Assembly (NCBI RefSeq): GCF_005960665.1
Contig: NZ_CP040676.1
Span: 1,746,501-1,810,500 of the forward strand
Length of the DNA: 64,000 nucleotides
Origin: Exiguobacterium mexicanum
GTDB lineage: Bacteria > Bacillota > Bacilli > Exiguobacteriales > Exiguobacteriaceae
Direction: 5' to 3'
Every line of letters begins with the position of its first letter. Position 1 is the first letter of the stretch. Shown here one piece after another: positions 26,197-29,910 of the stretch. The notes below the pieces were generated by a model, which saw only the letters and a program-made list of their open reading frames with translations, was not told the origin of the DNA and did no database searches. Made by a program: the position numbers and the translations under genes.

Positions 26197-26217
26197 GATA
26201 ATTGCCTCCTCAGAAAG

Positions 26218-26245
26218 AGAGCGACATCCATGCGGAAGTCGCTCG
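26218..26245 (-). terminator. Hairpin between greA and mtnN
   Basis: GAGCGAC (minus strand) pairs with GTCGCTC across a 12-base loop and is followed by TCTTTCTG. Possibly a leaky terminator, since mtnN has no clear promoter of its own. Confidence 0.5.
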
Positions 26246-26251
26246 TTTGTG

Positions 26252-26725
26252 TTACTTGATTTCTTTGATTTCGACGACCATGTCGCCGCCCGGCGTTTGC
26301 ACGTTGACGACATCTCCGACCGTACGGCCGAGAAGTGCTTTCGCAATCGGTGATTCGTTCGAGATTTTTCCTGTGAACGGGTCAGCCTCTGCGCCACCGA
26401 CGATTGTGTACGTTTCATTCTCGTTATCTTCTTGAATGAAGAACGTCACGGTCTTTCCGATTGCGACCATCGAGTTATCAGCCACATCGTCTTGGATGAT
26501 GACTGCGTTACGAAGCATCTCTTCGAGTTGAGCAATCCGTCCTTCGACCATTGCCTGCTCTTCTTTCGCTGCATCGTACTCAGCGTTCTCAGACAAGTCT
26601 CCGAAATCGCGGGCAATCTTAATATTCTCAACGACTTCTTTACGGCGCACCGTCTTCAGTTCGTTCAATTCATTTTCGATTTTCGCTTTTCCGTCTAACG
26701 TCATGTAATGTTGTTTTTCAGCCAT
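26252..26725 (-). CDS. greA: Transcription elongation factor GreA
   Basis: Rescues backtracked RNA polymerase by stimulating cleavage of the transcript 3' end. The 157 residues give the usual N-terminal coiled coil, with [16 protein letters not shown] carrying the acidic residues (D and E at the hairpin tip) that reach the polymerase active site. The C-terminal domain [29 protein letters not shown] follows. ATG at 26725 follows AAGGAGTGAC. In B. subtilis it directly follows udk; here an inserted tnpB element separates them. Confidence 0.96.
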
Positions 26726-26781
26726 TTCTGTCACTCCTTCATTGTCTCCTAGTATATTACAGAATTTACGAACGGGAAAGC

Positions 26782-26849
26782 CCATATCCGACACATCCCG
26801 TTTTTAAACATGGGATAAACGTGAGTTCGGACGTTCTCCATATCCGACA
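26782..26849. repeat. Direct 12-base repeat upstream of greA
   Basis: CCATATCCGACA occurs at 26782-26793 and again at 26838-26849, 44 bases apart. It sits at the left side of the inserted region and may mark an old insertion boundary or duplication. Confidence 0.6.
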
Positions 26850-26954
26850 TTCGGTTAAATCTATCGCATAGACACATACAAGTCTCTAAAACACCTTTGT
26901 CCACCGACCTTTAAAATCGAGTCCGGCAGCAGACCGATGATACGATGCTTGTCG

Positions 26955-27159
26955 TCATGCTAAAGACGCTAAAACATCAAGTAGGCACACCTGTAACGAC
27001 CTGTGGTAGATGGTCACAGTCCACCAACCTGGGGACCTATAGAGTCTATCTCGGTAGAGGTGATGGCACACTCTCATTTGAAGGCTTGAACAAAACAAAA
27101 ATGAACTGCGTTCGCACAAGCACTTCAGAATCCCACGGTTTCAATGGTGAGAGTGTCAA
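26955..27159 (+). pseudogene. Degenerate 3' end of an older TnpB element
   Basis: Read across frames the DNA recalls the tail of a TnpB gene: HAKDA in the place of HDRDxNA, then NIK, then VGTPVTTCG and SESHGFNGESVK, which resemble sequences at the end of many IS200/IS605 tnpB genes. Stops and small gaps break the frame. It ends in GAATCCCACGG...GAGTGTCAA (27128-27159), close to the usual right-end hairpin of such elements. An open frame of 118 codons from 26945 crosses the region but is not convincing as a protein. Base composition is lower in G+C than the tnpB that follows. The reading rests on motif memory and needs a search. Confidence 0.4.
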
Positions 27160-27283
27160 AGCTCTTTTAACTAAATTTGGCGAGAATTCTCCCACCTCTA
27201 AACGTCGAAGAGGGAAGGCCCAGCGTAGGTGGAAGATGAACCGCCTGCTTGCAAATTCTTTGGATATCCCTGTGACAGATATA

Positions 27284-27299
27284 ACGAACAAAGGTTCGT
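27284..27299. repeat. Short inverted repeat 85 bases upstream of tnpB
   Basis: ACGAAC-AAAG-GTTCGT forms a six-pair hairpin. It could be the left-end hairpin of the IS element; it also matches the LexA consensus at 13 of 14 positions. Confidence 0.4.
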
Positions 27300-27383
27300 G
27301 ATTCTGTCAGATTCTCTCGCCCCCACCGCGGGTATCGGAATGGGACGAGACTCATCCTGACACCGCCCAAAGGAGGGACGGAC

Positions 27384-28517
27384 ATGCTGAAGGGCTACAA
27401 ATACCGGCTCCACCCGACGGCGGCACAGGCCGAGTTCCTGATCCGGACGATCGGCTGCGCCCGGTTCATCTACAACAAGCTGCTCGAGGACCGTATCACC
27501 ATTCACGAGGAGGCGAAGGCGGGCGGTGGGCCGAGACGGAAATCGCCGACACCCGCCTCCTACAAGCCACTGTTCCCGTTCCTTTGTGAGGCGGACAGCC
27601 TCGCGCTCGCGAACGCGAAGCTGCACCTCGACGCGGCGTTCGTAAAATTCTTCGCAGGGACGGCCGGCTTCCCGGTGTTCAAGTCGAGACGGAAGGCGCG
27701 CGCCTCCTACACGACGAACAACCAGCACGGCACGATCCGCATCGAGGCGGGAAAAGTCCGTCTGCCGAAGGTCGGGTTCATCCGGTTCACACAGCACCGC
27801 AGTTTCGACGGGGAGATCCGGTCTGCGACCGTGTCGATGACACGGACGGGCAGGTTCTTCGTGTCGCTCCTCGTCGAACAGGACGACGAGCCGTGGGTCC
27901 CCGCCGAGCACAAGGTCGGGATCGACCTCGGCCTCGGGCACTTCGCCGTCATGACGAACGACGATCTCGTCACGGAGAAGATTGCGAACCCGCGCAACCT
28001 GCGACAGGCCGAGGCGCGGCTCAAACAAGCGCAGCGCGCCCTCGCCCGCAAGAAGCCCGGCAGCAAGAACCGTGAGAAAGCGCGGCTCCTCCTCGCGAAG
28101 AGACACGAACAGGTCAAAAACCGACGGCACGACTTCCTCCATAAGCTGTCGCGACGCATCGTCGATGAGAACCAAGTCGTCGTGGTCGAGACGCTGAAGC
28201 CCAGAGAGATGATGAAAGACCGCCGCCTGGCGAAATCGATCGGGGACGCCGGATGGGGCGAGTTCGTCCGACAACTCGAATATAAATGTAAGTTCTACGG
28301 GCGGACGCTGATCAAGGCCGACCCGTGGTTCGCCTCGACCCAACTCTGTTCGAACTGTGGCGAGAACGACGGCAGGAAGGGCCTAGACATCCGGGAGTGG
28401 ACATGCGGCGCATGCGGCGCACACCACGACCGCGACGTCAACGCGAGCCTCAACCTGTTGCGCCTCGCCGACCGGAACACCTCAGGGCAGGGACTGCCCG
28501 ACGAGCTTGGTCCATAA
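27384..28517 (+). CDS. tnpB: RNA-guided endonuclease TnpB, IS200/IS605 family
   Basis: TnpB proteins cut DNA under guidance of an RNA made from the right end of their own element, helping the element persist. The 377-residue product has the N-terminal domain, a RuvC core with D181 (KVGIDLGLGHFAVMT), E269 (VVVVETLKPREMM) and D351 (HHDRDVNASLN), and a zinc ribbon with C322, C325, C341 and C344. It therefore looks intact. No tnpA transposase is nearby, so movement would need a transposase elsewhere. The gene is visibly richer in G+C than its neighbours, suggesting recent arrival. ATG at 27384 follows AAAGGAGGGAC. Confidence 0.9.
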   Translation: MLKGYKYRLHPTAAQAEFLIRTIGCARFIYNKLLEDRITIHEEAKAGGGPRRKSPTPASYKPLFPFLCEADSLALANAKLHLDAAFVKFFAGTAGFPVFKSRRKARASYTTNNQHGTIRIEAGKVRLPKVGFIRFTQHRSFDGEIRSATVSMTRTGRFFVSLLVEQDDEPWVPAEHKVGIDLGLGHFAVMTNDDLVTEKIANPRNLRQAEARLKQAQRALARKKPGSKNREKARLLLAKRHEQVKNRRHDFLHKLSRRIVDENQVVVVETLKPREMMKDRRLAKSIGDAGWGEFVRQLEYKCKFYGRTLIKADPWFASTQLCSNCGENDGRKGLDIREWTCGACGAHHDRDVNASLNLLRLADRNTSGQGLPDELGP

Positions 28518-28595
28518 CCGCGGCTAGTAAAAGCACGGTCTTCCCAAGAAACTCCCACTTCAAGTTGCGAAACAAGCAAGTGGTGAGTAGTTCAC
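28518..28595 (+). mobile_element. Right end of the tnpB element, likely omega-RNA scaffold
   Basis: After the stop codon a hairpin ACTC-CCACTT ... AAGTGG-T-GAGT (28551-28588) is followed by AGTTCAC ending at 28595, the form of IS200/IS605 right ends that also supply the 3' scaffold of the guide RNA. The guide would then be the flanking host bases from 28596, starting ATTGAAAACGATTTATTT, just downstream of udk. Confidence 0.6.
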
Positions 28596-28616
28596 ATTGA
28601 AAACGATTTATTTCCC

Positions 28617-29255
28617 TTACGCGCGGTTACGTTCTGTCAGCACCCAGCGAATCTTCGTCACGAGCAAATCGATTGCGACAAAGTTCTCTCCGCCTTCAGG
28701 GACGATGATATCCGCGTAGCGTTTCGTCGGCTCACAAAATTGAAGATGCATCGGCCGGACGACGTTCGTATACTGGGCGACAACCGAGTCGATTGACCGG
28801 CCCCGCTCATTGAGATCGCGCTGCATCCGGCGTAGGATGCGGACGTCCGCATCCGTGTCGACGAACACTTTAATGTCCATCAAGTCACGCAGACGATCGT
28901 CCTCGAGCGCCAAAATACCTTCGACGATGACGACGTCGACCGGCTCGATCAAGATCGTCTTGTCCGAGCGCGTGTGCGCCGCATAGTCATACACCGGTTT
29001 CTCGATGGCCTTGTGCTCTTGTAACTGCTTGATATGCTCGATCAAAAGATCGTTATCGAATGCGAACGGGTGGTCATAGTTCGTCTTATATCGTTCTTCC
29101 ATCGTCATCTCTGACTGGTCTTTATAATACGCGTCTTGCTCGATCATGACGACCGATTGTCCTTTGAACGCATCCACGAGCGCGCGGGCCACGGTCGTCT
29201 TACCTGATCCGGTCCCCCCGGCCACGCCGATAATGACGGGTTTATGTTGCATCAA
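28617..29255 (-). CDS. udk: Uridine kinase
   Basis: Phosphorylates uridine and cytidine in pyrimidine salvage. The 212-residue P-loop protein shows [17 protein letters not shown] (Walker A, about residues 9-25), [22 protein letters not shown] in the substrate region (quoted in part elsewhere), [12 protein letters not shown] and [13 protein letters not shown]. It starts with ATG at 29255 after GAGGAGGACTTAACTTTG and follows trmR by 13 bases. The tnpB element ends only 21 bases past its stop codon, so the native terminator, if any, was displaced. Confidence 0.96.
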
Positions 29256-29268
29256 AGTTAAGTCCTCC

Positions 29269-29910
29269 TCATCGTAATTTACGACTGATTGCTAGGCCAT
29301 CACCAAGGGGCAAAATTGCAGTATGATAATCGGTCCGTGCCATCAATTGCTCAGTAAACTCTTTTACGAGACGAACAAGCCGGCGGCGTCGACGGTCAAG
29401 CACTGACACATCCTCGAGCAGGACGTCCCCTCGTAAAAATAAATTATCGCTGTAAATCGTACCACCAATTGGTACTAAAGCGCCATACCCATCAAAGAAT
29501 TTTTGATACTGACCTTTGGCCGCGTCGATAAAGACCGCATCGAATTCTCCTTCAATCGTCCCGATCAACTCCACCGCATCACCATGAATGACAGTGATTC
29601 GGTCCGATACGTCCGAGCGTCCGATAAAGCCGAGTGCCTCTTCGTGACGTCGTGCGTTTCGTTCGATCGTGACGATTTCCGCGTCCGGCAACAGTTCAGC
29701 CATTCGAATCGCACTGTATCCGATTGCCGTACCGACCTCAAGGATCCGTTTCGGACGTTGCATCGCGAGAAGCGACAGCAACACTTCAGATCCGGTCAAG
29801 TCCATGATTGGCACGTGATGTTCTCGGGCGAACGCCTCCATCTCCGCCAATAACGGCGACCGGGGCGTGACCAAGTTCTCCACGTAACCTTCATAGGATG
29901 AATGTTCCAC
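29269..29910 (-). CDS. trmR: tRNA 5-hydroxyuridine methyltransferase TrmR (YrrM)
   Basis: S-adenosylmethionine-dependent O-methyltransferase of about 213 residues, very like B. subtilis YrrM/TrmR, which methylates 5-hydroxyuridine at wobble position 34 of tRNA to 5-methoxyuridine. Seen: [20 protein letters not shown] (motif I), [28 protein letters not shown] and [12 protein letters not shown], with the conserved ending [13 protein letters not shown] place the start at GTG 29910 because AGAGG is eight bases away; GTG 29919 lies too close to it. It sits between mltG and udk; the yrrN and yrrO genes found there in B. subtilis are absent. Confidence 0.9.

Follow-up and report, generated by a model that had tools for sequence, protein, structure and literature searches.

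Genomic context and element boundaries

The window analyzed here is a 64,000-nucleotide stretch of the Exiguobacterium mexicanum genome in which the interval between greA and udk is occupied by two mobile-element insertions. The one next to greA, which we denote A', is a miniature IS605-type element; the other, element B, encodes a TnpB protein and has a LexA-type operator in the leader of its gene (Table 1). To define these insertions we used a set of 19 Exiguobacterium genomes, the window's own included. The udk side of the locus was located by search in all 19, and the udk-greA interval is empty in each of the 18 others, where it reads CTAGTATATTAC-AGCTAGGTTAA-ATTGAAAACG or a near variant thereof. 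Measured against these empty alleles, the window carries A' followed by element B, the two being separated by 11 bp.

Table 1. Features of the udk-greA interval and its surroundings, in window coordinates.
Feature	Position	Strand	Basis
greA, flanking gene	26252-26725	-	
TTAC, target site of A'	26757-26760	+	TATATTAC followed directly by host AGC in 18/18 empty sites
A', 399-bp miniature IS605-type element without tnpA or tnpB	26761-27159	+	ends match those of the tnpA+tnpB elements of this genome
Host DNA between A' and B, 11 bp, AGCTCTTTTAA	27160-27170	+	empty sites
TTTAA, target site of element B	27166-27170	+	empty sites; precedes most B copies
Element B, 1425-bp tnpA-less IS200/IS605-type element	27171-28595	+	empty sites here and at other B insertions
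Left end with inverted repeat	27171-27240	+	alignment; common to tnpA-carrying relatives
LexA (SOS) box-like operator CGAACAAAGGTTCG	27285-27298	.	99 nt upstream of the tnpB start
tnpB, predicted RNA-guided nuclease, 377 aa, intact	27384-28517	+	ORF, domains, structure matches, motifs
Right end and putative omegaRNA scaffold, overlapping the tnpB 3' end	28446-28595	+	conserved stems
TTCAC, right end of element B	28591-28595	+	host resumes at 28596 in 18/18 relatives
Predicted 16-nt guide ATTGAAAACGATTTAT, host DNA just downstream of udk	28596-28611	+	position rule
udk, flanking gene	28617-29255	-	

A preliminary description of this DNA, made from the letters alone, had reported an intact TnpB gene between udk and greA without tnpA and a right end in TTCAC at 28595. 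Both observations hold: no Y1 tnpA lies inside element B, and the comparison with empty sites, which that description had proposed as a check, places the right boundary exactly there. The same comparison moves the left limit, which had been set at the start codon, 213 bp further left. Besides this left end, the description had overlooked both A' and the LexA-type box ahead of tnpB. We examined the left boundary further by joining the flanks of 27 other B insertions, minus the first C of the element, and searching the 19 genomes with the joined sequences. From 30 loci covering 10 insertion sites, 40 junction alignments were listed, of which 22 (9 sites) are free of gaps, so the host has no base corresponding to the first C of element B. 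The other 18 listed alignments show no additional host base where the flanks meet, although several from site L079 are too poor to decide. An empty allele is exactly TTTAA at three other B sites (L051, L072, and L077), and the same pentanucleotide precedes 26 of the 27 tnpA-less B copies that have both ends, the remaining copy having TTTTA, as well as five of six tnpA-carrying B-type copies with ends, where the exception is TTCAA. Insertion of element B thus took place on the 3' side of a fixed short target, which was not duplicated.

In six relatives listed, inspection by eye revealed promoter-like hexamers facing greA in the udk-greA interval (TTTTCA and TATACT, 17-18 nt apart), the host DNA concerned lying at 26720-26765 and 28596-28612 in the window. 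Both insertions fall between these hexamers and may alter greA expression.

The miniature element A'

A' consists of a left end, a right end, and a presumed omegaRNA region, and terminates in TCAA. The two tnpA+tnpB (A-type) elements of this genome, at about C4:351860 and C4:254557, have ends that match A' at 26756-26784 (left end, 28-29 bp) and at 26999-27136 (right end, 138 bp, 85%). Near-full-length relatives were found in two genomes, G005 (seven copies) and G013 (one copy); as the seven G005 copies are nearly identical by eye, the A'-type miniature probably moved recently in that genome. Miniature non-autonomous derivatives of this kind are known as PATE or MITE-like elements. A' resembles them in having kept its ends and lost its genes, and in the near-identical copies within one genome, but differs in that the right-end (omegaRNA) region of its parent is also kept. 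Because this region is retained, A' may be able to supply omegaRNA or guide in trans to the TnpB encoded by the full-length element.

Two other interpretations of the region were considered and set aside. A group I intron (IStron-like) upstream of tnpB was dropped when the stretch was recognized as A', and an ORF at 26945-27301 was rejected as a gene, having no Pfam match and spanning A' into B. A search of Rfam over 26200-29300 yielded nothing at the gathering score, and two sub-threshold chance hits.

TnpB and its coding sequence

The TnpB protein scores above the cut-offs for OrfB_IS605, Cas12f1-like_TNB, and HTH_OrfB_IS605 and for the NCBIfam model guided_TnpB, and just below that for IS200_TnpB (420.4 bits against a cut-off of 425). 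It matches the solved TnpB structures 8bf8 (E 6.8e-80) and 8h1j (E 6.9e-80). The full set of RuvC and zinc residues claimed in the preliminary description is indeed present in the expected motifs, namely D181, E269, and D351, which we take from their motifs to be the RuvC triad, and C322, C325, C341, and C344, presumably the zinc ligands.

A coding sequence richer in G+C than its surroundings had likewise been noted, and the values are 0.633 for tnpB and 0.529 for the window outside the inserts. Across the genus, the 28 tnpA-less coding sequences range from 0.55 to 0.68, compared to 0.47-0.51 for eight tnpA-carrying relatives and 0.45-0.56 for the host flanks (12 loci checked). High G+C is therefore a trait of the whole tnpA-less clade and does not date the arrival of element B at this site.

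Pairwise dN/dS between the window tnpB and eight others is 0.12-0.20. On the window copy's own branch, counted at codons where at least six of seven relatives agree and including the time before insertion at udk-greA, there are 16 synonymous and 3 non-synonymous single changes, out of 820 and 2573 possible, respectively. The gene is under purifying selection both across the family and on this branch, and TnpB has stayed functional in an element that lacked its own transposase. A selfish nuclease would show purifying selection too.

Copies, transposase, and mobility

A second copy of element B, 90% identical and with another flank, is present in the same genome at C4:2094308-2095744; the two copies differ by about 9-10%. 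Among the loci examined in the 19 genomes there are 36 distinct full-length relatives at 60% identity or more, a count from which TnpBs of about 40% identity were excluded. Twenty-eight of these have no tnpA and TnpB identities of 75-100%, while the other eight, at 63-66% TnpB identity, each have a Y1 tnpA just upstream. Three loci (L078, L179, and L074) lack a left end by the pattern used. Both ends were found in 27 of the tnpA-less copies. These are spread over 25 distinct sites, since the pairs L089/L075 and L050/L178 each appear to occupy one site in two genomes.

The 19 genomes contain 16 Y1 genes, of which eight lie just before a B-type TnpB and eight near an A-type right end; the A-type and B-type TnpA proteins share 31% identity. 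Full-length tnpA-less copies occur in ten genomes, two of which (G001 and G005) also have a B-type tnpA. No tnpA matching element B was found in the window's own genome, where the two Y1 genes belong to the other element type and lie elsewhere. In alignments, the left and right end sequences are common to tnpA-less and tnpA-carrying relatives, and for this reason element B was likely moved by TnpA acting in trans. Of the two origins that had been suggested for it, an arrival mobilized in trans is accordingly the one that gains support, the site being empty in all 18 relatives. The closest pair of tnpA-less copies within one genome is 97.3% identical (G006), and since same-genome copies differ by several percent, there is no sign of very recent spread. 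By descent, element B is an ordinary mobile element.

Several Exiguobacterium genomes also carry a different tnpB family (L080-L083 and L093-L095), with TnpBs about 40% identical. No tnpA was seen just upstream of these genes, whose left ends resemble TATCAAAATTAGGCGAGAATAC and whose right ends resemble GTAGTTCAA.

Right end and predicted guide

Inverted repeats are present and conserved at both ends of element B, although the ends of the window copy fold no better alone than their shuffles do (left end, z -1.46, 20 of 200 shuffles equally good; right end, z -0.93, 36 of 200). The stems of the right end, where the preliminary description had placed a hairpin, are conserved over 32 distinct element ends. 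Paired changes occur in these stems at two neighboring pairs, in 9 of the 32 ends, and at a single additional cell.

We take the guide to begin immediately after the right end, at 28596, following the rule from work on ISDra2 and IS605. The earlier prediction that it is host DNA from that position agrees with the empty sites, in all of which host sequence resumes there. Fifteen of the 18 relatives have the guide 16-mer unchanged in their empty allele, and none of the 18 has an exact TTTAA adjoining the guide match, GTTAA and ATTAA alleles occurring among them, so that cutting or homing there would need a relaxed TAM. The predicted nuclease would thus cut the precise-excision product of the window's own lineage, and the alleles of relatives only if its TAM requirement were relaxed.

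A LexA-type operator in the tnpB leader

lexA and dinB are SOS genes, and the host carries LexA together with the same type of operator on both of them. The leader sequence CGAACAAAGGTTCG matches CGAAC(n)4GTTCG, the LexA consensus of Bacillus subtilis (PMC4551915). In the window's genome this pattern occurs at 11 sites, compared to two for the reversed control. Two of the sites lie in the B copies, six within longer ORFs, and three immediately in front of genes. Of these genes, one is dinB, one encodes a topoisomerase subunit and is read here as parE (Pfam: HATPase_c only), and one is a 77-aa ORF with no match in Pfam. Upstream of lexA, three boxes with one mismatch each lie within about 180 bp. 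Near-matches with at most one mismatch are not in excess in the window (7 found, 8.4 expected), and the site in the tnpB leader is the sole perfect one.

The box recurs throughout the tnpA-less copies of the genus. It is perfect over its ten fixed bases in 23 of 27 leaders and has one mismatch in the other four; L074, whose left end was missed by the pattern and which is outside the 27, has the exact 14-mer (L206). As the tnpA-less clade is monophyletic, these leaders do not amount to 27 independent observations. When the 5+4+5 frame is placed at 200 positions along the leader, the box is narrowly the best conserved of all (0.985, with 0.981 for the left-end repeat), the 40 bases upstream of it scoring 0.77 and the 40 downstream 0.91.

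The commonest version of the box, the exact 14-mer CGAACAAAAGTTCG, occurs at 49 sites in the 19 genomes and once as the reversed control. Nineteen of these sites precede dinB, one in every genome, about 55 nt before the start; 26 lie in B leaders, and four stand before a small ORF. The B-leader assignments rest on a TnpB match in 11 cases, on the distance to TnpB matches in another 11, and on leader similarity alone in four (L203, L219, L227, and L229). The surroundings of L228 include a 39-nt, 79% match to a B leader (E 8.6e-6), and this site was counted with the small ORF since that ORF follows the box. A search with the dinB locus L188 found no similarity to B leaders beyond the box itself, which makes it improbable that the box arrived as part of a dinB promoter fragment. 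A scan for sigma-A promoters over 26700-28700 gave no hits, and inspection by eye found no convincing pair of hexamers around the window's box.

The small ORF (77-91 aa) with a perfect LexA-type box in front is found in five genomes (L230 at C4:163500-166500, L197, L198, L202, and L228). Pfam gave no match for the one copy tested, and close to the four small-ORF boxes carrying the 14-mer a second, divergent small ORF begins as well. The boxed ORF is possibly an uncharacterized SOS gene.

Leaders without the operator and the sister genus

In Exiguobacterium, six tnpA-carrying leaders have at best two mismatches to the box, and a segment of the B leader was not found in the tnpA-carrying relatives aligned. 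Five of the tnpA-carrying leaders were scored for promoters and have TTGGCA, TTAGCA, or TTGGTA, a 17-nt spacer, and TATAAT or TACAAT. The nine leaders examined for TnpBs of about 40% identity (130 nt each, seven of them from Exiguobacterium) have two to four mismatches at best, as do the A elements and A'.

We also compared 19 loci of a sister genus, with TnpBs of 58-67% identity, of which seven have a full tnpA, two a partial one, and ten none. In eight of these ten tnpA-less copies, L246, L248, L249, L250, L251, and L254 being among them, the leader is short (134-142 nt), lacks the box, and has a promoter of native type. Loss of tnpA does not, therefore, require SOS control. Of the remaining two, L260 has no recognizable left end, and L258, from genome G024, has AGAACAAATGTTCG within the 17-nt spacer between promoter-like TTGAAA and TGTAAT.

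A protein tree was made of 43 TnpBs, among them 16 of the 28 Exiguobacterium tnpA-less copies. The tnpA-less copies of that genus form one monophyletic clade (99/100), and L258 falls outside it, grouped with another G024 element (100/99). Loss of tnpA has occurred more than once. Because L258 sits elsewhere on the tree, its box, a single copy with one mismatch, is suggestive of a second gain, short of proof; a rough calculation puts the odds of a match this good arising by chance in so long a leader at about 1%, with no correction for how many leaders were scanned.

Proposed model and its alternatives

We consider it probable (roughly 0.7) that element B is a mobile, tnpA-less IS200/IS605 element whose RNA-guided TnpB came under LexA/SOS control, through the operator in its leader, once the transposase had been lost. 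From these sequences we infer the following course of events. LexA bound to the operator would keep tnpB, and the omegaRNA cut from its mRNA, at a low level. Once the SOS response is set off by RecA and single-stranded DNA, cleavage of LexA would allow the TnpB-omegaRNA complex to be made, TnpB processing its own mRNA into omegaRNA, as demonstrated for other TnpBs (PMC10278001). With host DNA next to the right end as its guide, the complex would target TTTAA plus that sequence, i.e., the element-free allele, and cutting at a site from which the element had been lost, followed by recombination with an intact copy, would restore element B. SOS control would thereby time a costly nuclease to the presence of excision substrates and recombination proteins, while transposition itself would depend on TnpA supplied in trans. 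Excision and insertion of ISDra2 from Deinococcus rise after irradiation, in derivatives without tnpB (PMC2806898), and damage would therefore be a time when such an element is lost and needs restoring. A broader version of the model, for which we would give slightly better than even odds, holds that the tnpA-less TnpBs of Exiguobacterium and its sister genus have come under the SOS repressor, perhaps twice independently, that restoration is timed to damage, and that cuts made by TnpB feed back on the SOS response.

The palindrome could instead belong to an ordinary tnpA-less insertion sequence as an RNA stem-loop, acting as an attenuator or mRNA stabilizer and merely resembling a LexA box. 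A nested inverted repeat, of 7 + 6 pairs in the window copy, does contain the box (z -2.0, 5 of 200 shuffles equally good), and in an alignment of 22 leaders, obtained from the 27 by removing four exact duplicates and L175, which differs in one flanking base, 89.5% of the pair cells are standard, compared to 23-40% when the frame is slid; the conservation 3' of the box would also fit an RNA element. However, paired changes across the 22 leaders are no more frequent than in shuffles (one two-sided pair, a value reached by 189 of 500 shuffles), and CGAAC/GTTCG itself contains none, which favors a protein site over an RNA stem. Moreover, the pair just outside the box is broken in 4 of the 22 leaders, one outer-stem pair is unpaired in 20 of them, and the exact 14-mer stands before dinB in every genome. 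We therefore regard a stem-loop as the sole role of the palindrome as unlikely, the covariation pattern being compatible with both roles together.

Two further alternatives are a foreign arrival and domestication. Its base composition, along with a site that is empty in all 18 relatives, would fit a recent foreign arrival from a G+C-rich donor, but every one of the 28 tnpA-less copies examined in the genus is G+C-rich, and the two copies in this genome have diverged from each other. Furthermore, matches among plasmid (1149 records) and phage (161 records) sequences are all below 60% identity, with no near-identical copy from a distant high-G+C host in these collections, and we consider such an arrival improbable. 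That TnpB is instead a domesticated nuclease, kept at udk-greA for a host function, had been the other suggestion of the preliminary description, and could draw on the intact reading frame, the purifying selection, and an operator like that of a host repair gene. The empty sites in the relatives argue against any fixed locus, though, and the exact transposon ends are retained not only here but at many sites, including the second location in the same genome. Domestication is thus very improbable.

In our judgement, two wider questions are touched upon, namely by what means a transposon controls a nuclease that cuts the chromosome of its host, and what allows tnpB-only elements to persist when they have no transposase. 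If the model is correct, RNA-guided nucleases are connected with the response to DNA damage, and there is an explanation for how an element of this kind keeps the cost of its nuclease down. Since the LexA operator is kept throughout the tnpB-only clade, SOS control can be tested directly and cheaply.

Comparison with known systems

IS200/IS605-family elements without tnpA make up the tnpB-only (IS1341-like) group. Element B resembles this group and ISDra2 in its terminal inverted repeats, a fixed pentanucleotide target on the left, a structured right end, a TnpB with RuvC and zinc residues, and the use of host DNA as presumed guide, and shares the absence of tnpA with the IS1341-like elements. 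It differs from both in its target (TTTAA), its end (TTCAC), and the LexA-type operator in the tnpB leader, which appears to be the new part of element B; a search of open-licence PubMed Central found no paper on LexA control of tnpB. ISDra2 likewise inserts 3' to a pentanucleotide, in a process that requires TnpA and not TnpB (PMC2806898). DNA damage raises the activity of ISDra2, as is predicted from sequence for element B, but the available part of the ISDra2 paper describes no LexA box on tnpB (PMC2806898).

A closer parallel in regulation is found in the ISCR transposase genes, which are repressed by LexA and induced by DNA damage, as shown in E. coli by authors who state that SOS control of IS elements has been reported in few articles (PMC13393415). 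There, too, an insertion-sequence gene whose product acts on single-stranded DNA is under LexA and damage-induced, an arrangement that for element B is predicted. The difference lies in what is controlled: a transposase in ISCR, whereas in element B, a Bacillota element, the sequence indicates that it would be an RNA-guided nuclease that has no transposase beside it.
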